Assembly: GCF_002000365.1 (NCBI RefSeq)
Contig: NZ_MVBK01000018.1
Location: 13,063 to 68,525, forward strand
Length of the DNA stretch: 55,463 nucleotides
Direction: 5' to 3'
From: Thioalkalivibrio denitrificans
GTDB lineage: Bacteria > Pseudomonadota > Gammaproteobacteria > Ectothiorhodospirales > Ectothiorhodospiraceae
The notes beneath the pieces were generated by a model. The model ran no database searches. It was given only the letters and a program-made list of their open reading frames with translations, and was not told the DNA's origin. The position numbers were made by a program, and so were the translations under genes. Position 1 is the first letter of the stretch. Every line of letters starts with the position of its first letter. Positions 6,322-49,874 of this stretch are shown here, one piece after another.

Positions 6322-8855
6322 CCTGTCGACAGTTTTGCGCGCTTGAGCAGCATCGAGTTGCCGATCACCGACAGCGAACTGGCGGTCATGGCAATCACGC
6401 CGATCATGGGGTGCAGCAGGCCGACGGCGGCGATGGGGATTGCGGCGCCGTTGTAGAACCAGGCCCAGAACAGGTTGTGCACGATCTTGCGGAATGTCAG
6501 GCGCGAGAGCCGGATGGCCTCCACCACCTTGGTCAACTCGCCGGACACCAGGGTCACGTCGGCGGCCTCGATGGCCACGTCGGCGCCGGCGCCGATGGCG
6601 ATGCCCACGTTGGCCTGCATCAACGCCGGGGCGTCGTTGATGCCGTCGCCCACCATGGCCACGTGGGGGCCGAAGCGCTCCTGGAGTTTGCGGATTTCGT
6701 CCACCTTCCCCTCGGGCAGGACGCCCGCGAGCACCTCGTCGATGCCTACCTCCTCGGCCACGGCGCGCGCCGCCCGCTCGTTGTCGCCGGTGACCATGGC
6801 CACCTTGAGCCCCAGGGCGTGCATGGCCTCGATGGCCCGCTTCGATTCGGGCTTGAGGGTGTCGGCCACGGCGACGATGCCAACGGCCTGCCCGTCGCGC
6901 GCCACCAGCACCGCGGTGCGGCCCCTGGATTCCAGTTGGGCGAGGTCTTCGTCCAGCGCCTCCAGCCCCTGCACACCGGATTCCTCCAGCAGGCGCCGGT
7001 TGCCGATCAGGACCCGCGCGCCCTCCACGGTGCCCTCGACCCCCCGGGCCGTAACCGATCGGAAGCTCTCCACCGGGGAGATCTCCACGCCGCGGCCCTT
7101 CGCACCGTCCACCACGGCGCGGGCCAGGGGATGCTCGGAGGCGTTTTCCACGGCGGCGGCAAGCCGCAGCACCGCTTGCTCATCCCCGTCGGCAGCCACC
7201 ACGTCAGTGAGTTCCGGCTCGCCCCGGGTGATGGTGCCGGTCTTGTCCAGTACCACCATGCGGATGTCCTTGAGCGTCTGGATGGCCTCGCCGGAGCGGA
7301 TCAGCACGCCGCGTTCGGCACCCAGCCCCGAACCCACCATCAGAGCCGTGGGCGTGGCGAGCCCCAGGGCGCAGGGACAGGCGATCACCAGCACCGCGAT
7401 GGCGGCGAGCAGCGCCAGGATCACCGGCCCGGCCTCCGGGTTCACCCATGGCAGGAAGCCCGCGCCCCAGTCCAGGATCGGACGCAGCGGTTCGGGAAAG
7501 AGCAACCAGGCAAAAAGACTCGCCAGCGCGATCGCGATCACCGCCGGTACGAAGCGGGCCGTCACCCGGTCGGCAAACTCCTGGATGGGCACTTTCGAGG
7601 ATTGGGCCTGTTCCACCAGTTTGATGACCTGGGAAAGGAAGGTGTCTGCGCCCACCCGGGTGGCCCTGATCTTGAGTCGGCCCTCCTTGTTGATGGTGGC
7701 CCCCAGTACCGGGGCGCCGGGGGACTTCTCCACCGGAATGGACTCCCCGGTGGCGATGGACTCGTCCACATGGCTGTCGCCTTCCACCACTTCTCCGTCG
7801 GTGGGGATCTTCTCGCCCGGACGCACGATCATCACATCGCCGATGGACAGTGCCTTGACCGGTACTTCCACCTCCTCGCCGTCGCGTTCCACGCGTGCCG
7901 TCTTGGCCCCCAGGGTGAGCAGCTTGCGGATCGCCTGGGATGCGCGGCCCTTGGCGCGGTTCTCCAGATACCGCCCCAGCAGGTGGAAAGTCATGATGGT
8001 GGCGGCCATCTCGATGAACGAGGTCATGGGGTAGACAAAGCCCACCAGGCCGATGAGATAGGGCGGCAGGCTGCCCATGGAGATGAGCACGTCCATGTTC
8101 GCGGTGCGGTTGGTCAGCGAGCGCCAGGCGGAGACGTGAGTGGCCCAGCCGCCGTAGAGAAACACCACGGGGAAGGCCAGCGCCGCGATCACGGCCAGGT
8201 AGGCGGGTATGGGTGCGACGAACATGTGCACCATCATCAGCACCATGATCAGCGTGGTGGGTACCGCCGCGATCACGAAGCGCCGCCAGGCACGGGTCAG
8301 GTAGGCCGACTCCACGTCCGCCTCTTCGTCGGGTGCTTCGGTCGAGACCGAGGCCACCTCGTAGCCGGCCCGCTCCACGGCGGCCCGCAGTGCCTCTGGC
8401 GCGGGTCCGTCGGCGGCTGGTTTCACGATGACCTGATGGTTGGAGATATTGGTACGGATCTCCCCCACGCCAGCCAGGCGCTGCAGGGAGTCCTTGACCA
8501 GACCTGCGCAGTGGTCGGAGCCCATGCCGGGCACGACCAGCCGGACTTCGGCGAGGGAAGATGCTGCCTGGCCGGAACCGGAGTCCGCGGCCACTTCATA
8601 ACCGGCACGCTCCACCGCCTTGCGAAGCGTGCCGCGGTCGACGCGGGCGGGATCGAACTCGACGTCCACGCGATGGTTCGTGATGTTGGTGCGCACCTCG
8701 CCCACACCCGGCAGCCGGCGCAATGAGGAGGAGACGATCCCGGCGCAATGGTCGGAACCCATGCCGGGCACGGTGAGCGTGGCTGATTCGAGCGCGTTGA
8801 CGGCGTCGTTCGGCTCGGCACCGGCTGCATGGGCAGTCTGATCAGATCTGTTCAT
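6318..8855 (-). CDS. copA: Copper-exporting P1B-type ATPase CopA
   Basis: An 845-residue Cu(I)-transporting ATPase of the inner membrane. Two N-terminal HMA domains (about 24-90 and 104-168) are followed by the transmembrane part, actuator loop TGES (369-372), the CPC metal site (493-495), the phosphorylation motif DKTGT (537-541), an HP motif (SEHPLA) and GDGINDAP. Both HMA domains carry GMGSDHCAG (31-39, 110-118) instead of the usual GMxCxxC, so each offers one Cys plus a His. CPC identifies the substrate class as Cu(I)/Ag(I). It heads a coupled operon with two small genes. Confidence 0.95.
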
Positions 8856-38953: not shown

Positions 38954-39381
38954 GTGATCGGGCGCTGTCCGCAGACCTCAACAGGAATCGTGAAGGATCC
39001 TGGGCGCCCGGTCCGCCTCGCTCAATCTCTGGAAGGGGGAACGGGGGACAGACGACGGTTCCGTGTCTGTCCCCCGTTTCGTCTGGACGACTTCGTGTCC
39101 ACGCCGGGGATGGCTTGGATAAATCCCGAGCCGGTGAGGACCCGTTCGGAACCCCGGAAACGAAAAAGCCCCGACAAGATTGTCAGGGCATTCTCTGCAG
39201 AATCTGGCTCCCCGGGACGGGCTCGACGGATCCGTCGGGAACGGCTCCGGACGCGTGAAGCGCGCCCGAAGGGGCCGCGCCATGGATGGCGCGGATCAAC
39301 CCCGAAGGCGGTGAGAGCCCGTTCGGAGCCCCTCAAATGAAAAAGCCCCGACAGATACTGTCAGGGCATTCTCTGTGGAGC
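38954..39381. other. Gene-free region with hairpins and old tRNA-end scars
   Basis: No gene is seen. The stretch contains a 14-bp inverted repeat (39040-39053 / 39065-39078, AACGGGGGACAGAC), likely a terminator after the PCuAC gene, and two related blocks of about 105 bp (39120-39226, 39296-39404). Each block carries a tRNA-type terminator and the 3' end of tRNA-Asn. Confidence 0.6.
39163..39226 (-). repeat. Older tRNA-Asn 3'-end scar with terminator
   Basis: Positions 39204-39226 equal the last 23 bp (CCA side) of the attachment repeat. They are followed on the minus strand by a terminator-like hairpin (GCCCTGACAATCTTGTCGGG, then GCTTTTT). Identity then stops. It lies 178 bp outside attL and appears to be the relic of an earlier insertion at the same tRNA. 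Confidence 0.65.
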
Positions 39382-39429
39382 CTGGCTCCCCGGGACGGGC
39401 TCGAACCGCCGACCTAGTGATTAACAGTC
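39382..39429. repeat. attL: 48-bp direct repeat of tRNA-Asn 3' end
   Basis: Identical over 48 bp (CTGGCTCCCCGGGACGGGCT...AACAGTC) to 49606-49653, the 3' part of the intact tRNA-Asn gene from the anticodon loop to CCA. It marks the outer end of the integrated element and is followed at 39611 by the integrase gene. Confidence 0.92.
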
Positions 39430-39610
39430 CCGGCCATGGCCGGTCCACCAGGTTCCGGATTATCAAATACCATCAGGCACTTACAGGAATCAAGCCTTTT
39501 TCATCAATGGCTTACGCGCCGTTTTCCTTCGCCATTAAATGCCGCCTAGTGACATAGGATGCCGCAAGTTGTACATTGCCAGTGGTATTTGGACTGGTAT
39601 TTGGTGAAAC

Positions 39611-40930
39611 ATGGCGAAGCTCACGAAGCCCTTTATCGAGCAGATCCCGGCCACCGGGAAGCTGCAGGTGATCTACGACGACGACAAGAAGGCGCCGTCC
39701 GGATTTGGCGTCACGGTGTCCCCCAAGGGGGTAAAGTCCTATTTCGTGCGCTACGCGTACAACGGCATCGACAAGCGGGCTGTGATCGGCAAGGTGGCCG
39801 ACTGGTCGCTGACCGCCGCCAGGCTGGAGGCCGAGGACATGCGCAAGGCCTTCGCCCAGGGCCGGGACCTGAAAGCCGAGCGCCGCGCTGCCATCGAGGC
39901 CGCCAAGCAGGCCCGCAGGGATACCCGGGAAGGGCGCAATACCCTGGAGGCCCTGATCGGCGATTATCACGCCTATCTGAAGGCGCGGGGCAAGCCAAGC
40001 GCCGGGGAAGCCTATCGCCGACTGAAGCGCCATGTGATCGACGCGCAGCCGGATTTGGCGAAGAAGCCGGCCCGGGAGATCGTGCCCGATGACGTGATGA
40101 CGATCATCCGCAAGGTGGCGGGGGAGGGCAAGGAGCGCACGGCCGACCAGGTGCGCGCCTACCTGCGCGCGGCGTACTCAATCGCGATGCGGGCGCCCTA
40201 CGATCCACTCCTGCCCGCCGAGCTGAAGGACTACGGGGTCCAGTCGGACCCAACCGCTCCCATTGCCGTGATCCCGGTGCGTACGTCTGAACGCGTGCTC
40301 ACGCGCAAGGAGCTGGTCAACTACCTGCACGCCATCGAGGGCGAGGACCTGCAGCAAAAGGCGCTGAAGCTGGCCCTGTACGCCGGCGGCCAGCGCATGA
40401 GCCAGCTGCTCAGGGCGAAGCTCTCGGATTACGACGCCGAACACAAGACCCTCACCCTGTACGACGGCAAGGGCAAGCGGGCGCAACCCCGCGTCCACGT
40501 CCTGCCCCTGGGACCCGTGGCCGCCTCCATCGTCCGCGGGCTGGTGGAGCGAGCCCGCTCACTGTCATCGGATGAAAGTGAGGATCAGGGACCCCCGTTC
40601 CTGTTCGCCAGTCGAGGCGCCGCGATGTATCCGGGCGAGCCGGGGAAGTACCTGCGGGAGCTGATCGACGCGAACGGCTGGCCGTCCTTCAATCTCCGGG
40701 ACGTGCGCCGCACCGTGGAGACCGAGATGGCCCGCCTGGGGATCGGCAAGGACATCCGGGCGCACGTGCTTTCTCACGGCATCGGAGGCCTGCAGGACAA
40801 GCACTACGACCGGCACGCCTACACGACCGAGAAGCGCGAGGCGCTGCGCAAGTGGGAGCGCCACCTGGCGGGCCTCATGGCGCCGAAGAAGAAGGCCGGC
40901 AAGGTGGTGGCGCTGGGGGCAAGGGCATGA
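39611..40930 (+). CDS. Tyrosine-recombinase integrase of the element
   Basis: A 439-residue site-specific recombinase. It has the DUF4102-like/P4-type N-terminal segment (SGFGVTVSPKGVKSYFVRYA), a SAM-like core-binding domain and the catalytic domain. Catalytic residues: R262 (AGGQRMSQLL), R366 (RDVRRT), H389 (LSHG) and the nucleophile Y399 (HYDRH). The box normally reading HxxR has Arg (R363) in place of His. The gene starts 182 bp inside attL, as usual for tRNA-targeting islands, and is read inward. Its stop overlaps the next start (ATGA). Confidence 0.92.
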   Translation: MAKLTKPFIEQIPATGKLQVIYDDDKKAPSGFGVTVSPKGVKSYFVRYAYNGIDKRAVIGKVADWSLTAARLEAEDMRKAFAQGRDLKAERRAAIEAAKQARRDTREGRNTLEALIGDYHAYLKARGKPSAGEAYRRLKRHVIDAQPDLAKKPAREIVPDDVMTIIRKVAGEGKERTADQVRAYLRAAYSIAMRAPYDPLLPAELKDYGVQSDPTAPIAVIPVRTSERVLTRKELVNYLHAIEGEDLQQKALKLALYAGGQRMSQLLRAKLSDYDAEHKTLTLYDGKGKRAQPRVHVLPLGPVAASIVRGLVERARSLSSDESEDQGPPFLFASRGAAMYPGEPGKYLRELIDANGWPSFNLRDVRRTVETEMARLGIGKDIRAHVLSHGIGGLQDKHYDRHAYTTEKREALRKWERHLAGLMAPKKKAGKVVALGARA

Positions 40931-41436
40931 CAGACGATCCCAAGATCCCGTCCGATCATCCGATACGCAAGGTCTGGGAGGCCAACGAGAAGCTGCGCTC
41001 GATCCCCGGCCTGATCGAGTTGGCAGAGCGTGGCGATCACTACGCCGCGAAACAACTGCTCGCGTGGTTCTGCAATGACGTATCCCGCCGCCGCGCCTCA
41101 CTAATAACGGTTATTAGTGAGGCGGAGCCCCCACCACGCACCGAATTGATGGAGTACCTGGCAGCGTGCTTCACCAAGATACTGCAGGGCGATGACCCGG
41201 CCGCCGCACTGAACCTCAGTGGTGGCACGGGTAGCGGCAAGCGGGGAAGGCCAAAGTTGACCGCCTCCGACCATCAGAGGCTTGCCAGGGTTGGAATGAT
41301 GGTCGCGCGCAAGATCGACGAGTACGGACGGGGAGGATTCAAACGCGCACTTTCCGAGGTGGCCGAAGAGGCTCACTGTTCTGAGGGTACTGCGGACCGC
41401 GCGTATCAGATGTACATGAAGGGCACCGTAAAATAA
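40927..41436 (+). CDS. Element protein with HTH-like C-terminus, unknown
   Basis: A 169-residue protein. The N-terminal helical part contains RKVWEANEKLRSIPGLIELA and AAKQLLAWFCNDV. The linker GGTGSGKRGRPKLTAS is AT-hook-like. The C-terminal helices (FKRALSEVAEEAHCSEGTAD followed by RAYQMYMK) look like a helix-turn-helix. ATG 40927 overlaps the integrase stop. A 31-bp palindrome lies inside the gene (41094-41124). It may be a regulator or replication accessory protein. I do not recognise a family. Confidence 0.7.
   Translation: MTDDPKIPSDHPIRKVWEANEKLRSIPGLIELAERGDHYAAKQLLAWFCNDVSRRRASLITVISEAEPPPRTELMEYLAACFTKILQGDDPAAALNLSGGTGSGKRGRPKLTASDHQRLARVGMMVARKIDEYGRGGFKRALSEVAEEAHCSEGTADRAYQMYMKGTVK
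41094..41124. repeat. 31-bp perfect palindrome inside the HTH-like gene
   Basis: Arms of 15 bp (CGCCTCACTAATAAC / GTTATTAGTGAGGCG) sit around a single G. The AT-rich centre stands out in GC-rich coding sequence. It is an exact dyad with no loop, so it is more likely a protein-binding site (operator, origin or resolution site) than a terminator. Confidence 0.85.
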
Positions 41437-41487
41437 TCCGATTTATAGGCCGCTGATTTCTATACACTTTACGGCCAACTGAAGCCA

Positions 41488-41520
41488 TGCTGTCACCGTC
41501 GATGACGATGGATGACAGCA
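41488..41520 (+). promoter_or_regulatory. Inverted repeat TGCTGTCA-N17-TGACAGCA at the excisionase start
   Basis: Half-sites at 41488-41495 and 41513-41520 flank and overlap the start of the AlpA-like gene, in the 75-bp space that follows the HTH-like gene. A -10-like TATACA lies at 41460-41465. This is a plausible operator for the early region of the element. Confidence 0.5.
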
Positions 41521-41724
41521 ATGACAGAAGCAAAACTCCTCACAACCGAAGAGGCCGCTCACTATCTGCGGCTGTCGAGCCGTTCCCTGATTCGCTGGCG
41601 CGTCGAGCGCCGGGGCCCGCCCGTGGTGCGTGCTGGGAGGAAGGTCATGTACAGGCTGCATGACCTGGATGCGTGGCTCGACCGGCACACCTACGACATG
41701 CCCCGCGACCAGGTCGCGCGCTGA
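41512..41724 (+). CDS. AlpA/excisionase-type HTH protein
   Basis: A 70-residue protein with the MerR-like winged HTH of AlpA/excisionase regulators: LLTTEEAAHYLRLSSRSLIR, W, then RVERRGPPVVRAGRKVMYRL and HDLDAWL. In P4-like satellites and islands such proteins activate or direct excision. ATG 41512 and ATG 41521 are both possible, with no strong ribosome site. It is followed by the primase-helicase gene after 11 bp. Confidence 0.88.
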   Translation: MTAMTEAKLLTTEEAAHYLRLSSRSLIRWRVERRGPPVVRAGRKVMYRLHDLDAWLDRHTYDMPRDQVAR

Positions 41725-41735
41725 GCTGGCCGCTC

Positions 41736-43208
41736 ATGGCTGACGACGACGCCAACGGCGTGCCGCCTATGCGCCAAGTGTTTTCGACCGATCCCGCGAA
41801 GCGCCTCTCCGAGGCTTCTGATGCGGCACCCCTCGACCTGGCCCGAGAATGTCAGCTTCTCATGTGGGGCGGGCACCTGGTGCGCTGGCAAGGCGAATTC
41901 CTCGCCTGGCGTCGCGGCGCATATCGGGCGCTCAGCGACGATGCTGTGCGCACCTCGGTTTATTCGCACCTCGAGGTTGCCGGGCTAAAGGCCACGAGGT
42001 CGCGCGTCAGTGACGTCTTGGATGCGCTGCGCGCCGTCGCATTCATCGGTGATGACGTCGAGCCCCCGTGCTGGCTGGAAACGGGCGCGCCGCCGGCCAC
42101 GGGCCTGGTGGCATGCGCCAATGGCATCTTGAATATGGATACGGGCGAACTGGACCCGCCGGATCCGAATTTGTTCACGCTTTCGGCGCTCGAGGTGGCA
42201 TACGACCCGGCGGCCACGGCACCTGAGTGGGAGGATTTTCTGGATTCTGTTTTCGGCGAGGACGCGGAATCCATGAACACACTCCAGGAGATCTTTGGCT
42301 ATGTGGTCTCGCTCGAGACCGCGCTTCAGAAAGTTTTCCTTCTGATCGGCCCGAAGCGCTCCGGTAAGGGGACGATCCTGCGAGTGCTAACCCGCCTGAT
42401 CGGCCGCGCCAGTACCGCCGCGGTCACGCTTTCATCGCTTGAGCAACCGTTCGGCTTGCAGCCGCTAATCGCAAAGGCGCTCGCCACGATTTCGGATGCG
42501 CGGCTGGGCGGGCGCGCCGACCAATCTGCGATCACTGAGCGTCTCTTGTCAGTGTCCGGCCAGGATTACGTCGCGATCGCTCGAAAGTTCTTGCCCGACT
42601 TCACTGCACAGTTGGGCGCACGTTTCGTCATTGCTACGAACGAAGTCCCGCGACTGCATGATACAAGCGGCGCCCTCGCAAGCCGCTTCGTTCCCGTGGT
42701 CTTGGAGAAGAGCTTCTTTGGCCGCGAGGACATTGAGTTGATTGATCACTTAGTGCAGGAGCTGCCTGGCATCCTGGTTTGGGCGATGGCCGGCTACCGG
42801 CGCCTGGTGGAGCGAGGCCGCTTCGAGATCCCGTCGAAGTCTGTCGCCACCATTGAGGAGATCCATGACTTGAGCTCGCCCGTGGGGGCGTTCGTCCGCG
42901 AGCGCTGCGTGGTGGAGGCCGGGTGCGAAGTGGCGTGCGGGGACATCTACGACACGTGGAAAACCTGGTGCGAAGAACACGGCCGAACGCATCCAGGCAC
43001 GGAACAAACTTTTGGCCGAGATCTGCGTGCCGCTGTGCCTGGCATCGGGGTCTCACGCCCTCGCGTCGATGGCTCCCGTATCCGCGTCTACCGGGGCTTG
43101 CGCCTTGCCACGTCCGCCGACCGGCCTGCTGCCGCTCCAGACGCGCGCGGACCGAGGCGGACAGACTGTGTGCGGTGCAGTGGTGATGGTTGTGGCTGGT
43201 GTACGTGA
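41736..43208 (+). CDS. P4/D5-type primase-helicase (SF3)
   Basis: A 490-residue replication protein. The N-terminal part (about 30-200) resembles the D5_N/primase C-terminal region. The SF3 helicase ATPase has Walker A GPKRSGKGT (205-213), Walker B-like ALATISDARLG and sensor ARFVIATNEVPRL. A C-terminal DUF-like winged region follows. The extreme C-terminus CVRCSGDGCGWC is a small CxxC-x4-CxxC zinc motif not usual for the family. ATG 41736 is used. It probably replicates the excised element. The primase active site is not obvious. Confidence 0.9.
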   Translation: MADDDANGVPPMRQVFSTDPAKRLSEASDAAPLDLARECQLLMWGGHLVRWQGEFLAWRRGAYRALSDDAVRTSVYSHLEVAGLKATRSRVSDVLDALRAVAFIGDDVEPPCWLETGAPPATGLVACANGILNMDTGELDPPDPNLFTLSALEVAYDPAATAPEWEDFLDSVFGEDAESMNTLQEIFGYVVSLETALQKVFLLIGPKRSGKGTILRVLTRLIGRASTAAVTLSSLEQPFGLQPLIAKALATISDARLGGRADQSAITERLLSVSGQDYVAIARKFLPDFTAQLGARFVIATNEVPRLHDTSGALASRFVPVVLEKSFFGREDIELIDHLVQELPGILVWAMAGYRRLVERGRFEIPSKSVATIEEIHDLSSPVGAFVRERCVVEAGCEVACGDIYDTWKTWCEEHGRTHPGTEQTFGRDLRAAVPGIGVSRPRVDGSRIRVYRGLRLATSADRPAAAPDARGPRRTDCVRCSGDGCGWCT

Positions 43209-43267
43209 CCCGTGGTCCACGGTGGTCCGCGTCCCTTTCTATTGCACGCGTGGGAAAGGATATGGGT

Positions 43268-43951
43268 ATGAATAGATATAGATACAAATGTCCGGTACGC
43301 GGACCAGCGCGGCCCATGCTCGTGGAGCTATCTGGCCGTCACGCAGTTGGTGAGCACCGGTATGCGATGGTTGACCCGGAGGATTACTACCGGGTGGCCG
43401 GCTGGTCTTGGAAAGCGAAACCATCCGCCAGCGGCCGGATCTATGCGGTGCGCAGCACCCCTGGTGGCATGGTGCGGTTGCACCGCTTCGTCATGGGGCT
43501 TGGGCCGGGAGAGCCCGGCGATGTCCGATTCCTTAACGCGGATCCGCTGGACTGTAGGCGTTCCAACTTAGCGCGCAGCTCCCGCAGCGACACCGTCCAG
43601 GCGGCGCGGCGCGAGAAGCGTTTCGCGCATTGCTCCGAATGCAGTGAGGCCTTCGTGTTCTGGGCCGCAGGGGCTCGCCCGAAGTACTGCCCTACATGCC
43701 GACCGGAGATGAAGGCGCGAGCCGATGCGGCAGCCCGTGCCAAGCAAAAAGCTGCGCGCTGGGCCGGTGTGCCGGAAAGGGCTTCCTGCGCCTGGTGCTC
43801 GAAGGTGTTCACGCGCGCAAAACCAAGGCAGCAGTACTGCTCTAGTTTGTGCCGACACCGAGCCAAGAACGAGCGACGAAGGTACTTCCGCGAGACGTCT
43901 GACACGGGTAATTCGATCCCCGTTTTTTTTGAAGATATTTCAGGTAGTTAG
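43268..43951 (+). CDS. HNH-derived protein with two C4 zinc fingers
   Basis: A 227-residue protein. Residues 35-105 follow the HNH_3/AP2-type homing-nuclease pattern (YYRVAGWSWKAK...LHRFVMGL...NADPLDCRRSNLA). The catalytic D-H pair expected at about 87-88 is R-F, so cleavage is probably lost. Two zinc-finger pairs follow: C122/C125 with C141/C144, and C174/C177 with C191/C195. ATG 43268 has GGAAAGG 9 nt upstream. It might act as a DNA-binding regulator or packaging adaptor in the element. Function is unknown. Confidence 0.7.
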   Translation: MNRYRYKCPVRGPARPMLVELSGRHAVGEHRYAMVDPEDYYRVAGWSWKAKPSASGRIYAVRSTPGGMVRLHRFVMGLGPGEPGDVRFLNADPLDCRRSNLARSSRSDTVQAARREKRFAHCSECSEAFVFWAAGARPKYCPTCRPEMKARADAAARAKQKAARWAGVPERASCAWCSKVFTRAKPRQQYCSSLCRHRAKNERRRYFRETSDTGNSIPVFFEDISGS

Positions 43952-43970
43952 CCTTCCTTACCTAGCGTTA

Positions 43971-44044
43971 AGTTGTTGATTCTTGGTTGGGCGTCTTCTG
44001 GGGTCAATTTTCTTTTTTGAGGGTGAGTTGTTGATTCTTGGTTG
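43971..44044. repeat. Two 19-bp direct repeats before the late genes
   Basis: AGTTGTTGATTCTTGGTTG occurs at 43971-43989 and 44026-44044, 55 bp apart, in an AT-rich spacer (a T-rich run in between). This divides the replication half of the element from the capsid half and could be an activator-binding or promoter region. Confidence 0.7.
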
Positions 44045-44050
44045 TGCATC

Positions 44051-44434
44051 ATGATGGACGCCGCCACTCGCGCCGTGACCATCCAGACGCTGCGCCGCGT
44101 CGGTACTGACCTCGGCGTCGAGCCTGACGCCCTGCGTGTCTTGCTCGATGCTGTGTGGCGCCTGGAAGTGCACCCGGACGATGCCGCCGCTCTGAGAGAT
44201 CGCGCCCTGCTCGAGGCCGCGAGTTTGCTTGACCCCGGCGGCGAGTTGACGCCGTGGCAACTGGCCGGCCGCATGGCACGCGCCATCGATCACTTCTTGA
44301 TGGTTGTGGCTCGGCGGCTACGCCGTGACCCCTACGCCGAACTCTCGCCCCTGGACGAGACGCTGCAGCGCGCCTTTGCGAGCGGCTGCCGCGTGCCACA
44401 GAGCCAAAGGCGGCTCTACGATTTTCTGCGCTGA
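44051..44434 (+). CDS. Small helical protein preceding the capsid gene, unknown
   Basis: A 127-residue protein, largely helical and acidic/basic balanced (TLRRVGTDLGVEPDALRVLL; GGELTPWQLAGRMARAIDHF). It starts at ATG 44051 or 44054 directly after the second 19-bp repeat; no ribosome site is clear. It is 69 bp before the capsid gene. Position suggests a scaffold, regulator or packaging role, but no family is recognised. Confidence 0.6.
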   Translation: MMDAATRAVTIQTLRRVGTDLGVEPDALRVLLDAVWRLEVHPDDAAALRDRALLEAASLLDPGGELTPWQLAGRMARAIDHFLMVVARRLRRDPYAELSPLDETLQRAFASGCRVPQSQRRLYDFLR

Positions 44435-44502
44435 CGCCACGCGGCGAATCGTCAGCGATTTGGATGATACCTTGCAATCAAGCACACATATCGGAGCACC
44501 AC

Positions 44503-45534
44503 ATGACCCGTATCCCTCTCTCCCGCGACGCCATCAGCGACGGCTTGTTGCTACGCTCGGGCTACGACGTTGCCGGCGCGCATCCTGACGCCGAGCGCGT
44601 GGCCGGCATGAGCCTGGACGTGCTCGCCTCGACCATCGGCGAGGCCGCCATCGCGAACGATCCGCACCCGCCGCTTCGTCATAACCCGCGCCATGCGATG
44701 GCGCGTGGCCTCGCCACCGAGGACTTCGGCGCGGGCTTCGCCAGCGGCCTGGGCCACTTGGCGGTGCGCCGATACAACGCAAACGCCGATCATCGCCTGA
44801 TCACCCAGCCGGTAGAAGTCACCGACTTTCGCGAAATCACGTTGGGAACCGTAGACGTGAATCCGGGCCTGCCGTTGACCGGCGAGAATGGCGAGGTGGC
44901 CGAGGGCGACTTGGTGTCGATCCTTGACGGTCAGACCGGCGCGCTTCAGTCGTATGTTCGCTTGGCACGCATCCATCGCATGACGTTGATCAACGATCAG
45001 TGGGCTGTGATCGCGGGCGTGTTCGCCGCGCTGGGGCGCAACGCGGCGCGACTGGAGGCGCGGCTTCTGTACGGCCTATTGGAGTCCAATCCGACGCTCT
45101 CCGACGATGCGCCGATGTGGCACGCGGACACCCAGACCGCCCTCGCCGATGAGCTGAGTGCCACCGCGCTGGACCAAGCCATGGGCCTGCTGCGATTGCA
45201 GGGGCGCCGGCCGGATGAGCCCGTCGGGCATGGTGCGGCGGTGCTGGCGGTTGAGCCGCGCCTTGAGGGCCTGGCGCTGCGCCTGGTACGCGAGATGGGC
45301 GATCGTTTGCAAGTGATCGCCTCGCCGTTCCTGCCGGAGAACCGCTGGTATCTGTTCGCCGATTACGAGTCCGCGCCTGTGGTCGGCCGCCTGCAGCTGC
45401 GCAACGCGCCCCCGGTTCGAGTCGAACAGAAACCCCGGCCTGGGGGGTTCGATGGCGTGGCGCTCCAGGTCGGCGCTGACGTCGGCTTCGTGGTCATCGA
45501 TCGCATCGGCGCGCTGCGCGGTGGTCCGGCATGA
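44503..45534 (+). CDS. Major capsid protein (Mu gpT-like)
   Basis: A 343-residue protein resembling the capsid part of Mu-type prohead protease/capsid fusions. Recognisable stretches are TLINDQWAVIAGVFAALGRN, AARLEARLLYGLLESNPTLS and DDAPMWHADTQTAL, matching the INDD..AF...A..A..E...VY..L..NPTMSDG..LFH pattern. The N-terminal AISDGLLLRSGYDVAG to GLATEDF region corresponds to the linker of the fusion, but the ClpP-like protease domain is missing. GGAG lies before ATG 44503. The stop overlaps the next start (ATGA). It presumably forms the element's own small shell. Confidence 0.85.
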   Translation: MTRIPLSRDAISDGLLLRSGYDVAGAHPDAERVAGMSLDVLASTIGEAAIANDPHPPLRHNPRHAMARGLATEDFGAGFASGLGHLAVRRYNANADHRLITQPVEVTDFREITLGTVDVNPGLPLTGENGEVAEGDLVSILDGQTGALQSYVRLARIHRMTLINDQWAVIAGVFAALGRNAARLEARLLYGLLESNPTLSDDAPMWHADTQTALADELSATALDQAMGLLRLQGRRPDEPVGHGAAVLAVEPRLEGLALRLVREMGDRLQVIASPFLPENRWYLFADYESAPVVGRLQLRNAPPVRVEQKPRPGGFDGVALQVGADVGFVVIDRIGALRGGPA

Positions 45535-45950
45535 GTGATTATCGCCGCGCCGCTCGCGAGCTGGACAAGCACGCTCGCGAGCTGGACCGCCTCATGGATC
45601 GCCTGGAGGCGGCCCGGGAGGCCTCCGATGCGCCCCGGGTGGCCGAGACCCGCCGCAAGGTAATCGACGCCGAGCGCGCGACGGCCGCAGCCTACGATGC
45701 GATGGCTGCGGCCGTGCGGGCCCACTGGCGTGAGCGTGCCGGCGAGACCCTGCGCGAGCTGATCGCCGTGGCCACGCCATTGGCCGCGCGGTATCGGGCC
45801 GAGCGTAGAGCCGCCGGCGATCTGATCCCGTGGTGGCCGCCGATCTTCGAGGCGCTGGGCAACGCGCCAGAGCCGGAGCTTGACGGAGACGTGCCGAGCG
45901 AGCCGCCGGAGTGCGGCGCACTGGACCGCACCGAGGAGCGGTTGTGGTGA
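45531..45950 (+). CDS. Coiled-coil protein following the capsid gene, unknown
   Basis: A 139-residue protein. Its first 110 residues are a charged Ala-rich coiled coil (ARELDKHARELDRLMDRLEA; RKVIDAERATAAAYDAMAAA), followed by a Pro/Asp/Glu-rich tail. Both ends overlap neighbours by 4 bp (ATGA, GTGA), so it is stoichiometrically linked with capsid and the HExxH protein. A scaffold or head-completion role is a guess. Confidence 0.65.
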   Translation: MSDYRRAARELDKHARELDRLMDRLEAAREASDAPRVAETRRKVIDAERATAAAYDAMAAAVRAHWRERAGETLRELIAVATPLAARYRAERRAAGDLIPWWPPIFEALGNAPEPELDGDVPSEPPECGALDRTEERLW

Positions 45951-46636
45951 ACGAATGGCGTGCCTGGCCTGAGTATGCGCGTGACCGGCACACGCTGTCC
46001 GTCCACGAAGCTGCGCACCTGGTGGTGGGCCTTGTGACCTCCAGCTGGCAGGAGGATCGGCGAGCGGTGGTATACGACACGGACGACGGCGCGGGCGGCC
46101 AAGTGGAGCCCGCCGTTCCGGGTCCACCGCCCACGCGTACCCTGGAGGAGGCATTGGCGCCGGTAGCCGTGCCAATCCACCCTCAGCTTCAGTACCTGGC
46201 CACGCTGCGCGCAGCCACCTATTTGGCGGGATACGCCGCCGAGGCTCGCCTTCACGGTTTCGCGGATCAGGTCTCCGGCCCCCCTTCCGCTATCAACGGC
46301 TCGGAAGACGCGCGATGCGCTCGCATATGGCTGCGGTTCGCGTGGCCCGATGAGCGTATACGGCCGATGTGGCGCGCCTGGACCATGGCCGACGCCCTGA
46401 CGAAGGATCACTGGGCGTGGATTCGTCGCGTTGCCGCAGTCATCGCCGCCCATGGCGAGTGCGACACTGCGACAGCGCAGACACTGTGTTGTAAAGCCAT
46501 CTCGGACTCGGGGTTTTGCCGAGTATGGCACCGGGCTTCGGGGGTTGGGGTTCCCCCGGAGCGAGGCACCTCCGGCCGCGGGCATCCTCACCGCGGGACG
46601 GTGCCACCTATTTCCTCAGGGGGGCGGCGTGACTGA
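45947..46636 (+). CDS. Putative HExxH metalloprotease (M41-like) of the element
   Basis: A 229-residue protein with HEAAH (20-24) near the N-terminus (TLSVHEAAHLVVGLV), as in M41/FtsH-type zinc peptidases, and a helical core (ATYLAGYAAEARLHGFADQV). An ATPase domain is absent. The last 40 residues (GVGVPPERGTSGRGHPHRGT) look like read-through, so the domain may end earlier. The GTG start at 45947 has GAGGAG upstream and overlaps the previous stop. Because the capsid protein lacks the usual fused protease, a maturation-protease role is worth testing. Confidence 0.65.
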   Translation: MNEWRAWPEYARDRHTLSVHEAAHLVVGLVTSSWQEDRRAVVYDTDDGAGGQVEPAVPGPPPTRTLEEALAPVAVPIHPQLQYLATLRAATYLAGYAAEARLHGFADQVSGPPSAINGSEDARCARIWLRFAWPDERIRPMWRAWTMADALTKDHWAWIRRVAAVIAAHGECDTATAQTLCCKAISDSGFCRVWHRASGVGVPPERGTSGRGHPHRGTVPPISSGGRRD

Positions 46637-46913
46637 CCAAGCCATGCGTGAGCGCATCGCCGCTCTTGAGCGCGGCCAGGCGAAGCTGGCGGCTGAGCTG
46701 GCGGAGGAGATCGCGGCCCAGTGTGCCGAAGAGCTCACCGCCTTCCGCAACACCCTTCTGGAGATCGACAGCCTCCTGAAGCTGTTCAATCCCGATTGGC
46801 ACTGGGCAGACACCCTGTCAAGCCAGTTCCCCGCCCCGACACCAGAAGCGGAGCGCATAGCCCGCGAATGCGTCCTGGCACGTTTCCCAAGCCTGGGGCG
46901 GCCAAAAACCTGA
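46629..46913 (+). CDS. Small coiled-coil protein before the tape-measure gene
   Basis: A 94-residue protein with an N-terminal coiled coil (MRERIAALERGQAKLAAELA, EEIAAQ) and a FNPDWHWADTLSSQF segment. The GTG start (46629) overlaps the end of the HExxH gene by 8 bp and has AGGGGGG upstream. It ends 15 bp before the tape-measure gene. Its position fits a tail-assembly chaperone slot, but sequence gives no proof. Confidence 0.6.
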   Translation: MTDQAMRERIAALERGQAKLAAELAEEIAAQCAEELTAFRNTLLEIDSLLKLFNPDWHWADTLSSQFPAPTPEAERIARECVLARFPSLGRPKT

Positions 46914-46928
46914 CGGGAGATTCAATAA

Positions 46929-49070
46929 ATGTCAATGCGCGACACCTTCCTGAATCTGATCCTGCGAGGCGATGGTGGGCCGCTGCGCACGGAGATGGAG
47001 AAGAGCGCCCGACACATGCGCGACAGCGGGCGTCGGATGCAACGCGGCCTGGAGCCTGCCGACCAGCAGATGCGGCGTGTATCCATGACGGCCCGCCGGC
47101 TTACCGGCATCATCGCAGGCCTGGCGGGCGCCGCCTCCATGGGGGCCCTGATTCGCTCACAGATCACCGCGGCGGACACCGCGGGGAGGATGGCCCGGCG
47201 TATCGGCGAGAGCGCGGAGACCGTCAGCACGCTCGGCTTCGCGGCCGAGCAGTCCGGCACTAACATCGACTCCATCGGCCGCGCGTATGACGGCTTCATC
47301 CGCCGGCTTGACCAGTTCCGTGAAGGCAGCGGCAAGGCGGGGCGCGCCGCGCGCGCGCTTGGCCTCGACATCTTCGATGCCGAAGGCAAGGTTCGCCCCT
47401 TCAGCGAGATTTTGCTTGATGCCGCCGACCGGCTATCCATGGTGGAGGACCCGGCGCTCAAGTCATCGCTGGCCACGAAGATCTTCGGCCGTTCCGCCGG
47501 CGATCTGATCCCGTTGCTCGACGAGGGCGCCGACGGGATCCGCGAGCTGCAGCAGCGCGCCCGGGACTACGGGCGCGAGATTGATATGCACACGGCCGAT
47601 GCTGCCCGCGAGTTCAACGACACCATGAACGAGCTGCGGGGCGCCGTCGGCGGCGCGTCCCGTGGCTTTGTCGGACAGATGCTCCCGTCGCTGCTCGTCA
47701 TCTCAAAGGAGATGCGTAACTCCGCAACCGAAGCGGACGGGCTCGCCCAGAACCTGGGTAAGGTCGTCAATCAGTTAATCAAGTGGGTTGCCCTGGGCAC
47801 ACGTACAGCCATCGTTCCGCTCGAGGCCATGGGCGAGGCTATCGGTGGCGGCATCGCATACGTGGAGCAGCTGGCCCGGGGCAACCGCGAGGGCGCCCGC
47901 GCCATCCGCGAGCACATGGAAGCGACGCAGGCTTTCGAGGGGCCGCTGCAGAACCTGGTCGAATTCTACGACGCGCTCTACAACGCCCAGGAGCGCGCCA
48001 CCGAAGGCACGGAGGATGTCACCGAAAAGACCGCTGAGCGCCTCTCAGAGATCGAGAAGCTCAACGCGCGGTTGCAGGCGATCTTCGGTGAGGGCGCCGA
48101 CGCCGCGAGAAGCGCAGCACAGGAGCGCGCGGACGCCGAGCAGAAGGCGATTGAGGGGATGCGCCGCCAGGTGGAGACCATCGGGCACGTCACCAGGGAG
48201 GAGGAAATCCTCTACGAGATCCGCCGCGGCAATTATCGGGAGTTCACGGAGCAAGGCCAGCAGCAGCTTTTGGCATACGCCCGGGAGCTGGACGCCGTCG
48301 AGGCCCTGGCGGAGGCCGAGCGCGAGCGCGTGCAGACACAGGAGCGCATGGCCACCGAGGCCCAGCGTATCTACCAGGCCACCCGCACACCTGCCGAGCA
48401 GCTCGCTGCCGAGATCGAGCACCTCAACGAACTGCTCGACGCCGGCGCGCTGAGCTGGGACACCTATGCCCGCGCCGTGTTCAACGCCCAGGAGAAGTTC
48501 GAAGGCGCCGCCGAAGAGGCGGTGACGGCTTCATCCCAGTTCGCCATCCAGGGCGCGCGCAACATCCAGTCCGCATTCGCCGACTTCCTGTTCGATCCGT
48601 TCGAGCAGGGGTTGCAGGGCATGCTGCGTGGCTTCGTCGACATCCTGCGGCGCATGGCTTCGGAGGCCATCGCCGCGCAGCTGGGCGCGCGGCTGTTCGG
48701 GGATTTCGGCGGGACGGGCCAGCTCGGCGGCGCTGTCGGCGGCGTCCTGGCCAGCGTATTTCATGATGGTGGCGTGGCGGGCGAATCCGCACCGGTGCGT
48801 CGGGTGCCCTTGACGTCCTTTCTGGATGCCCCCCGCTACCACAGTGGGGGCATTGCGGGTGATGAGGAGTTCGCCATCCTCAAGCGCGGCGAGGAGGTCC
48901 TGACTCAGGACAACCCGCGCCACCGCGACAACGCCGGCGCCGGCGTGCGCGTGGTGCTGGTGGATGATCGCAGCAACATCGCCGATTACCTGGGCACGGC
49001 CGACGGGGAGCGGGCCATCGTGCAGGCGGTCCAGCGCAACCGCATGGCGGTCAAGCAGGTGCTTTCGTGA
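46929..49070 (+). CDS. Tape-measure-like protein
   Basis: A 713-residue protein with the usual phage tape-measure layout. It has an N-terminal helical region, a Gly/Ala hydrophobic segment (LTGIIAGLAGAASMGALI), long coiled coils (about 345-520) and an amphipathic hydrophobic C-terminal region. The last part has the characteristic VFHDGGVAG, YHSGGIAGDEEFAILKRGEE, VLT ending. In phages this protein sets tail length and helps DNA entry. Here no tail tube or baseplate gene accompanies it. GAGATTC is the only ribosome-like site before ATG 46929. Confidence 0.82.
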   Translation: MSMRDTFLNLILRGDGGPLRTEMEKSARHMRDSGRRMQRGLEPADQQMRRVSMTARRLTGIIAGLAGAASMGALIRSQITAADTAGRMARRIGESAETVSTLGFAAEQSGTNIDSIGRAYDGFIRRLDQFREGSGKAGRAARALGLDIFDAEGKVRPFSEILLDAADRLSMVEDPALKSSLATKIFGRSAGDLIPLLDEGADGIRELQQRARDYGREIDMHTADAAREFNDTMNELRGAVGGASRGFVGQMLPSLLVISKEMRNSATEADGLAQNLGKVVNQLIKWVALGTRTAIVPLEAMGEAIGGGIAYVEQLARGNREGARAIREHMEATQAFEGPLQNLVEFYDALYNAQERATEGTEDVTEKTAERLSEIEKLNARLQAIFGEGADAARSAAQERADAEQKAIEGMRRQVETIGHVTREEEILYEIRRGNYREFTEQGQQQLLAYARELDAVEALAEAERERVQTQERMATEAQRIYQATRTPAEQLAAEIEHLNELLDAGALSWDTYARAVFNAQEKFEGAAEEAVTASSQFAIQGARNIQSAFADFLFDPFEQGLQGMLRGFVDILRRMASEAIAAQLGARLFGDFGGTGQLGGAVGGVLASVFHDGGVAGESAPVRRVPLTSFLDAPRYHSGGIAGDEEFAILKRGEEVLTQDNPRHRDNAGAGVRVVLVDDRSNIADYLGTADGERAIVQAVQRNRMAVKQVLS

Positions 49071-49090
49071 GCGCGCCTGTTCCGAGTCGT

Positions 49091-49125
49091 GTCAAGCACA
49101 CTTGACAAAAGGCGCGCTATACTCA
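49091..49125 (+). promoter_or_regulatory. Palindrome GTCAAG-CACA-CTTGAC with -10-like TATACT
   Basis: The dyad at 49091-49106 is followed by TATACT (49118-49123) and, 70 bp on, by the start of the small acidic protein gene. A second dyad with the same CTTGA/TCAAG half-sites lies just behind that gene (49460-49480). It is a plausible repressor site for a separately controlled gene at the end of the element. Confidence 0.55.
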
Positions 49126-49195
49126 AAGCGCACCGGGAGCGGATGAGGCCGCCCCCGGCACTTCCCACGGCAAAACCTGACTAGGAGGTTCCACC

Positions 49196-49456
49196 ATGAG
49201 CGACACCAATTCTATCCCGCGCGCTGCCCAGAAAGCAGATGCTGAAGGAATGACCGATGCGGCGATCAAGATCCAAGCCGCATTTGTGGTGCTGTCTTCG
49301 CTTGAAAAGCTCGCGTACCGGCTAATGGACGGAGAAGACGACGAGGTCCTGCACGTCATCGCAACCATTGCTCGTGACGCGCAATCCAACCTGGATGAAG
49401 CCCATGATATTCTGGGCAATTTGATCGATGCCGCAGCGAAACCGAAAGCGGCCTGA
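49196..49456 (+). CDS. Small acidic element protein, unknown
   Basis: An 86-residue helical protein (AIKIQAAFVVLSSLEKLAYR; DEVLHVIATIARDAQSNLDE) with an acidic middle. AGGAGG lies 7 nt before ATG 49196, the best ribosome site in the element. It has its own promoter-like palindrome upstream and a terminator downstream, so it is a stand-alone transcription unit next to attR. Such independently expressed end-genes in satellites and prophages are often cargo (immunity or defence) genes. I do not recognise the family. Confidence 0.75.
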   Translation: MSDTNSIPRAAQKADAEGMTDAAIKIQAAFVVLSSLEKLAYRLMDGEDDEVLHVIATIARDAQSNLDEAHDILGNLIDAAAKPKAA

Positions 49457-49459
49457 GCT

Positions 49460-49480
49460 CACTTGAATCCGTTTCAAGTG
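49460..49480. repeat. Inverted repeat CACTTGAA-N5-TTCAAGTG
   Basis: 8-bp arms lie immediately after the stop of the small acidic gene, sharing half-site sequence with the palindrome at 49091-49106. It may be a second operator for the same regulator. Confidence 0.6.
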
Positions 49481-49489
49481 ACGAACCCG

Positions 49490-49515
49490 AGCCCCGCCCC
49501 GCGCGGGGCTTTTTT
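49490..49515 (+). terminator. Rho-independent terminator of the small acidic gene
   Basis: The stem AGCCCCG / CGGGGCT with a GC loop is followed by six T residues. It ends the last plus-strand transcript of the element. Confidence 0.9.
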
Positions 49516-49563
49516 GTGGCCGCCGCAGGGACTGGTATTTCTATGGTATTTGAGACCCTGAAA

Positions 49564-49590
49564 CGAAAAAGGCCAGTCAATAAACTGGCC
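49564..49590 (-). terminator. Terminator of tRNA-Asn
   Basis: Read on the minus strand, GGCCAGTTTATTGACTGGCC and a run of T residues stand 17 nt after the tRNA end. The equivalent hairpins beside attL (39339-39367 and 39163-39188) have a different stem sequence. Confidence 0.85.
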
Positions 49591-49605
49591 TAAGTCTTTG
49601 TTTTT

Positions 49606-49653
49606 CTGGCTCCCCGGGACGGGCTCGAACCGCCGACCTAGTGATTAACAGTC
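49606..49653. repeat. attR: 48-bp direct repeat inside tRNA-Asn
   Basis: The right copy of the element's attachment repeat. It covers the 3' half of tRNA-Asn from the anticodon loop through the encoded CCA, so integration kept the tRNA gene whole. Confidence 0.92.
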
Positions 49654-49682
49654 ACCCGCTCTACCGACTGAGCTACCGGGGA
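49607..49682 (-). tRNA. tRNA-Asn (GTT)
   Basis: A 76-nt cloverleaf read on the minus strand: acceptor TCCCCGG / CCGGGGA, D arm GCTC-AGTCGGTAGA-GCGG-like, anticodon loop CTGTTAA with GTT, T loop GGTTCGAGCC, discriminator G and encoded CCA. It is the integration target of the 10.2-kb element. Confidence 0.96.
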
Positions 49683-49786: not shown

Positions 49787-49856
49787 GTAGGTCGGGGCTT
49801 CAGCCCGACGATCGTGGCCAGCGGAGCCACCCACGTCGGCCTGAAGGCCGACCTAC
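49787..49856. repeat. REPIN-like hairpin pair, copy 3
   Basis: GTAGGTCGGGGCTTCAGCCC... (49787-49809) faces GTCGGCCTGAAGGCCGACCT... (49835-49856), just after the stop side of the aminotransferase gene. The spacing is nearly identical to copy 2 (17372-17441). Confidence 0.8.
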
Positions 49857-49874
49857 AGGGGGGTGTTTCGGTCT

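Follow-up and report, generated by a model that had tools for sequence, protein, structure and literature searches.

What kind of element carries genes for a major capsid protein (MCP) and a tape measure protein (TMP) and none recognisable for terminase, portal, tail tube or lysis? The question is raised by a span of about 10.2–10.3 kb (39382–49653) inserted at a tRNA-Asn gene within a 55-kb stretch of the Thioalkalivibrio denitrificans genome (55,463 nucleotides, hereafter the window). We consider it probable that this element is an integrative phage satellite which builds chimeric virions. The reading is based on the integrase, AlpA-type regulator and primase, the attachment (att) repeats, the intact open reading frames (ORFs), an MCP of its own lineage, a near-complete TMP and the lack, by homology, of portal and terminase. 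The element comprises the following features:

39382–39429, no strand: attL, 48 nt, copy of the 3' part of tRNA-Asn and exact direct repeat with 49606–49653
39465–39472 (minus), 39583–39590 (plus) and 39595–39602 (plus): left putative arm-type TGGTATTT motifs
39611–40930, plus: tyrosine integrase, P0001, 439 aa (PF00589, 5.4e-11; PF13356, 1.9e-13)
40927–41436, plus: P2, 169 aa, ORF without family match
41512–41724, plus: AlpA-type helix-turn-helix (HTH) regulator/excisionase, P0003, 70 aa (HTH_17, 9.5e-13; "excise" domain)
41736–43208, plus: P4-family primase-helicase (TIGR01613, 6.6e-53; PHROG 6088, 4.8e-72)
43268–43951, plus: HNH/zinc protein, P0005, 227 aa (weak HNH match, PHROG 1271 HNH endonuclease, 1.3e-10)
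44051–44434, plus: P6, helical protein, immediately upstream of the MCP gene
44464–45534, plus: stand-alone MCP without fused protease, P0007, 356 aa (PF25209 Phage_capsid_4, 6.8e-24)
45531–45950, plus: P8, helical-hairpin protein, 139 aa
45947–46636, plus: P9, HExxH metallopeptidase-like protein (motifs VHEAAHLV and AGYAAE)
46644–46913, plus: P10, 89 aa, ORF directly upstream of the TMP gene, no positive family match
46929–49070, plus: TMP, P0011, 713 aa (PHROG 8462, PHROG 2335, PF10145)
49196–49456, plus: P12, 86 aa, ORF without family match, AGGAGG upstream
49533–49551: right putative arm-type motifs, two TGGTATTT (starting at 49533 and 49544)
49606–49653, no strand: attR, 48 nt, identical to attL, inside tRNA-Asn
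49607–49682, minus: intact tRNA-Asn (GTT), the integration target

The 12 ORFs are all on the plus strand and contain no internal stops; most have a high third-position G+C content, as host uvrB does, and ATGA overlaps join the integrase gene to P2, the MCP gene to P8 and P8 to P9. The start codon of the primase-helicase is uncertain, its frame being open from 41673, and the P4 alpha-type match covers the C-terminal helicase part. Scanning of the window proteins against Pfam, PHROGs and NCBIfam gave no model match to terminase, portal, tail-tube or lysis proteins, although very remote homologues are possible. The same databases gave no match in the element to the portal, head protease, connectors and small and large terminase subunits (TerS and TerL) of capsid-forming phage-inducible chromosomal islands (cfPICIs), Pfam gave none to the capsid-size genes psu and sid, and PADLOC found no defence cargo of note. 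These results bear out most of what an earlier note, made from the letters alone, had described: perfect 48-bp ends at tRNA-Asn, a front half with integrase, AlpA-type regulator and P4-type primase-helicase, a back half with capsid, HExxH and tape-measure genes, and no terminase, portal, tail tube or lysis genes.

The right 48-nt repeat is the 3' part of tRNA-Asn, since the intact tRNA-Asn(GTT) gene lies at 49607–49682. The left boundary is fixed by the DNA to the left of attL, which is 81% identical over 179 bp to the DNA outside a related element in the congener G044. All five copies of TGGTATTT in the window lie just inside the element ends, each at most 175 bp from a 48-bp repeat, when the chance expectation for the 55-kb window is a mean of 0.27 copies and none of 100 shuffles reached five. 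The motifs at both ends are thus probably arm-type sites of the integrase. The G+C content of the element (0.647) is close to that of its flanks (0.64–0.67). The sequence left of attL is itself duplicated (39129–39226 and 39306–39404, copies 178 bp apart). The first copy terminates (39181–39226) in a 22-bp piece of the tRNA-Asn 3' end, and a comparable partial copy was found outside the G044 element. The duplication is perhaps a scar left by an old integration at the site.

The missing parts were looked for in the rest of the host genome. Neither TerL nor portal was detected with phrog_15, PF03237 and PF04860, and no second MCP or TMP was found. Therefore, by those three models, the element is not half of a resident prophage, and its helper would have to come from outside or be of an unmodelled kind.

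The capsid gene had been called "Mu gpT-like" in the earlier note; capsid it is, but a more exact label can be given. P0007 aligns to positions 279–629 of NF045541, a 634-position model of the protease/MCP fusion, and is more aptly described as corresponding to the C-terminal half of such a fusion in mEp043/Rhodobacter-type phages; its phage relatives are about 25–27% identical. The segment that lies between protease and shell domain in the fusion is still present (cf. L031 below), the protease itself being missing. In a class-level scan of 369 genomes, the capsid matches divided into long ORFs of the fused type and short ones standing alone, and in a phylum-level scan of 397 genomes nearly all the strong matches were fused ORFs of 600–800 aa. 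Within the order the MCP is scarce, occurring in 3 of 47 genomes. A maximum-likelihood tree was made with 40 capsids, namely seven stand-alone element MCPs, 32 prophage capsids and the fused L031 protein. The window MCP and the six other stand-alone element MCPs formed one clade (support 100/99) separate from all the others. Long branches meet in two of its seven members and the placement of these is therefore less sure. The stand-alone capsid of L077 groups with the prophage capsids (counted among the 32 as L056) and would be of separate origin.

The TMP has both its ends, with matches of the N half to PHROG 8462 (8e-41) and of the C end to PHROG 2335 (9.2e-27), besides PF10145 (PhageMin_Tail, 4e-9). 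TMPs of 705–809 aa are found in four elements (713 aa in the window, 809 in L010, 719 in L071 and 705 in L076). Several of the small proteins around these two genes recur in related elements. Homologues of P6 lie upstream of the MCP gene in L004, L005, L010, L028, L029 and L031, and P8 is kept 3' of it in L004, L005 and L010. The AlphaFold2 model of P6 is all-helical (pLDDT 89.6); TerS, portal or another known fold found no support here, either as a significant PDB match or as a family match. That of P8 is a long helical hairpin, for which Foldseek gave Psu, the decoration protein of satellite P4, at ranks 2 and 5 with E of about 1, and VIA gave Z of 8.2–8.3 over 121–127 residues, the longest in the list, with a root-mean-square deviation of 5.7–6.1. 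A Psu identity is not supported, as the sequence profile finds no Psu and the structural match is not significant. The likeness is only a lead because helical hairpins score so by chance and the sequence gives no support. P6 and P8, conserved next to the MCP, probably serve in head assembly or decoration. P9 shares the motifs VHEAAHLV and AGYAAE with L005 and L071, and its homologue lies immediately upstream of the TMP gene in L071 and L076. That P10 could be a tail chaperone is only a guess.

The flanking aminotransferase gene and tRNA-Asn are conserved in the congeners G043, G044 and G045, two of which have elements at this site:

G045, 8.9 kb, 49-bp repeats: integrase (40% identical to P0001), primase-like ORF, HK97-type MCP (PHROG 10, 2e-60), head protease (PHROG 80, 6e-44), TerS-like protein (PHROG 83, 8e-6)
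G044 (L071), 15.2 kb, 49-bp repeats: integrase, AlpA, primase, TerS (PHROG 57, 5e-29), TerL gpA (PHROG 15, 2e-200), P6-like protein, P9 (34% identical to P0009), TMP of 719 aa

Three related elements at one site thus carry different virion genes: MCP and TMP in the window, TerS, protease and MCP in G045, and TerS, TerL and TMP in G044. Neither TerL nor portal was recognised in the G045 element and no capsid match was obtained in that of G044; portal was recognised in none of the three, the sibling ORFs having been scanned in part. The TerS-like genes suggest a redirection of packaging in the siblings. In G043 no second att copy was found, and since a different integrase lies directly downstream of the tRNA (L072, 2008–3132), the site hosts more than one kind of element. 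In the G044 element, TerL (L071, 7916–9997) and the adjacent small HTH protein (7578–7952) have near-identical C-termini (GLGREDWTL and GLGKEDWVL), possibly a tail that both use for docking to portal or terminase partners.

About ten elements from other genera and families have the same capsid block or the protease/TMP pair; most are 9–16 kb long with exact att repeats, and the homologues are only about 35% identical. The order P6-MCP(-P8) is kept in other genera at tRNA-Gln, tRNA-Ser and tRNA-Pro. The related elements are as follows:

L004/L006, Ectothiorhodospira haloalkaliphila ATCC 51935: integrase, AlpA, ATPase, Mor-like HTH, P6, MCP, P8; 49-bp att, tRNA-Gln
L005/L007, Thioalkalivibrio sp. 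ALE31: integrase, ATPase, TerS-like HTH (PHROG 57, 1.8e-7), P6, MCP, P8, P9; adjoins tRNA-Ser, only a 14-bp repeat
L010 (G265): integrase, P6, MCP, P8, TMP of 809 aa; 25-bp repeat
L028 (G300): integrase, AlpA, P6, MCP; 49-bp att, tRNA-Pro
L029 (G281): integrase, primase, P6, MCP; 49-bp att, tRNA-Pro
L030 (G173): contig end, P6-like ORF and MCP; adjoins tRNA-Asn of the same anticodon in a similar neighbourhood
L031 (G166): integrase, HExxH protein (weak Peptidase_M41 match), TerS-like HTH (PHROG 57, 1e-10), P6, fused protease-MCP, minor tail Z/neck protein (PF06763, 2e-6; PHROG 27, 5e-20); 58-bp att, tRNA-Leu
L076 (G276): integrase, primase, P9, TMP of 705 aa, Gabija; 48-bp att, tRNA-Glu
L077 (G681): integrase, primase, P6-like protein, coiled coil, stand-alone MCP; no att found

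The E. haloalkaliphila element contains an IS21-type insertion (L004, 13269–14534), in DNA with a masked run of N. In L076 (12725–16487) a Gabija GajA/GajB pair adjoins the TMP gene (PADLOC, 1e-283 and 1e-263).

The alteration of helper heads and packaging by satellites has long been known. The closest precedent for the capsid is Ccm of SaPIbov5 (355 aa), a capsid homologue that is placed at the pentamers and makes the helper head smaller (PMC8569155). Lone capsid homologues without head-packaging genes are known in SaPIbov5, a cos-type phage-inducible chromosomal island (PICI) (PMC8569155), in the Gram-negative PICIs PmCI172 and EcCICFT073 (PMC6092414) and in the Vibrio satellite-plasmids PISP (PMC13230959), which corrects the earlier note's statement that known capsid-forming satellites carry head-packaging genes as well. 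Like the three integrative islands, the window element is small and has a lone capsid homologue with neither portal nor TerL. However, its capsid belongs to the protease-fusion lineage of PF25209, it has TMP, P6, P8 and P9 in addition, and no Stl or helper is known. PISP resemble the G045 sibling in the set of lone capsid, head protease and TerS (PMC13230959); unlike the window family they are episomal, have no integrase, use the capsid family PF03864 and are described with no mention of a TMP.

For the tail there is precedent in the phage-inducible chromosomal island-like elements (PLEs) of Vibrio cholerae, whose TMP was shown by experiment to replace that of the helper in chimeric tails, transduction of PLE11 being nearly abolished by TMP deletion (PMC12987554, 2026). 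The window element likewise encodes its own TMP, a likeness to PLEs (TMP, TAC, BhuB) that is one of gene type. PLEs act through the capsid scaffold TcaP and not through an own MCP, whereas the window element has its own, and the helper of PLEs is the lytic ICP1. An own MCP is shared with cfPICIs, some of which have predicted TMP genes (PMC12987554); however, these carry protease, portal, connectors, TerS and TerL (PMC10690885), none of them detected here. With P4-like satellites, whose core genes include neither MCP nor TMP (PMC8628076), the element has in common its integrase, AlpA-type regulator and P4-family primase-helicase, but it gave no sid or psu family match. Each half thus has a precedent and therefore the window element is a variant of satellite, not a new kind of system. 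In the open-licence literature searched we found no satellite that pairs a lone MCP with a TMP, no report of PF25209 capsids in satellites and no same-site siblings exchanging virion parts. Of the earlier claim that no described family matches, what stands is the combination, and the part swapping among siblings is likewise without a match; a satellite TMP by itself is already reported in PLEs and predicted in some cfPICIs.

In the mechanism that we propose, infection by a helper phage would lead the element to excise and to replicate through its own primase-helicase. Its MCP would co-assemble with, or replace, the helper capsid protein around the helper portal and, by analogy with SaPIbov5 Ccm, give a small head, which helper protease and terminase would mature and fill. 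The element TMP would be incorporated instead of that of the helper, as in PLEs. The helper would therefore supply tube and tip, while the satellite would determine length and DNA-delivery properties. A broader proposal, which we find as easy to accept as to doubt, is that of a modular satellite family remodelling both ends of the helper virion, each member replacing a different subset of helper parts to give a two-parent particle, with cassettes (MCP, protease-MCP, HK97 MCP and protease, TerS, TerL, TMP, neck protein) being swapped among elements that share a site and a gene layout.

Several points weigh against the satellite interpretation. Helper, excision, packaging and particle are predicted from the sequence. 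Neither a packaging site nor a TerS was identified in the window element, though siblings have TerS-like genes, and its MCP and TMP match no specific helper, the nearest phage relatives being about 25–42% identical over the aligned parts. The element was absent among the viral contigs of IMG/VR searched by MCP, TMP and integrase, where two TMP matches and one distant MCP match all fell on phage-like contigs. In addition, the functions given to P6, P8, P9 and P10 are guesses.

Among the alternatives, a decayed prophage that retained a few structural genes by chance is unlikely, even if MCP and TMP descend from phages, the element lacks portal, TerL and tail genes and an insertion sequence lies inside the L004 element. 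Decay fits poorly with 12 uninterrupted and in part overlapping ORFs, exact att repeats, the same order at other hosts and tRNA sites, a separate MCP clade, the P4-family primase and AlpA-type gene typical of satellites, and the small size of most elements (9–12 kb). The check that the earlier note had proposed, an order unique to this genome with relatives carrying the missing genes as the sign of decay, went the opposite way, as the block recurs at other tRNAs without portal and with TerL in one element only. Next in rank, and improbable too, is an anti-phage island whose MCP and TMP would spoil particle assembly by incoming phages, transfer being secondary or absent. Satellite capsid homologues do strongly suppress helpers (PMC8569155), tail assembly is a known target of defence (PMC11364771, PMC10884400) and the L076 relative carries Gabija; however, integrase, AlpA-type gene, primase and putative arm sites indicate active mobility, and a near-complete TMP together with TerL and TerS in siblings suits the building of particles better than sabotage.

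Recent loss of portal and terminase from a satellite of cfPICI type is a decidedly improbable reading. It would agree with the heads and, in some cases, predicted TMPs of cfPICIs (PMC12987554) and with TerS and TerL in the G044 sibling, but the seven stand-alone capsids go back to an old common lineage with no portal or TerL in sight, and the sole TerL-bearing element lacks a capsid gene. Finally, a gene transfer agent or domesticated particle, to which a partial set of virion genes would point, is very improbable given the element's own integrase, att repeats and replication genes, its patchy presence in the order and the failure of the models tried to detect portal or TerL in the genome. Of the two options that the earlier note had offered, the gene-transfer particle found no support and a satellite that relies on a helper for packaging and tails fits best.

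If the satellite interpretation is true, it becomes possible to test which parts of a virion a parasite has to encode itself and which it may take from others. The family lies outside Vibrio, in environmental gammaproteobacteria; in it a lone capsid protein is carried along with a tape measure, and siblings at one tRNA gene carry complementary virion parts. Further elements may be sought with the stand-alone MCP clade and the P6 family as starting points.

Two other observations concern the rest of the window. At about 49787–49857 there is a palindromic GTAGGTCGG...CCGACCTACA repeat of about 70 bp that resembles a repetitive extragenic palindrome or bacterial interspersed mosaic element (REP/BIME) and has dozens of dispersed copies in the host genome and in congeners. 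Between 22001 and 28000 of the window the G+C content falls to 0.52–0.60 over several kb, against 0.65–0.68 around, and this region is possibly another island.

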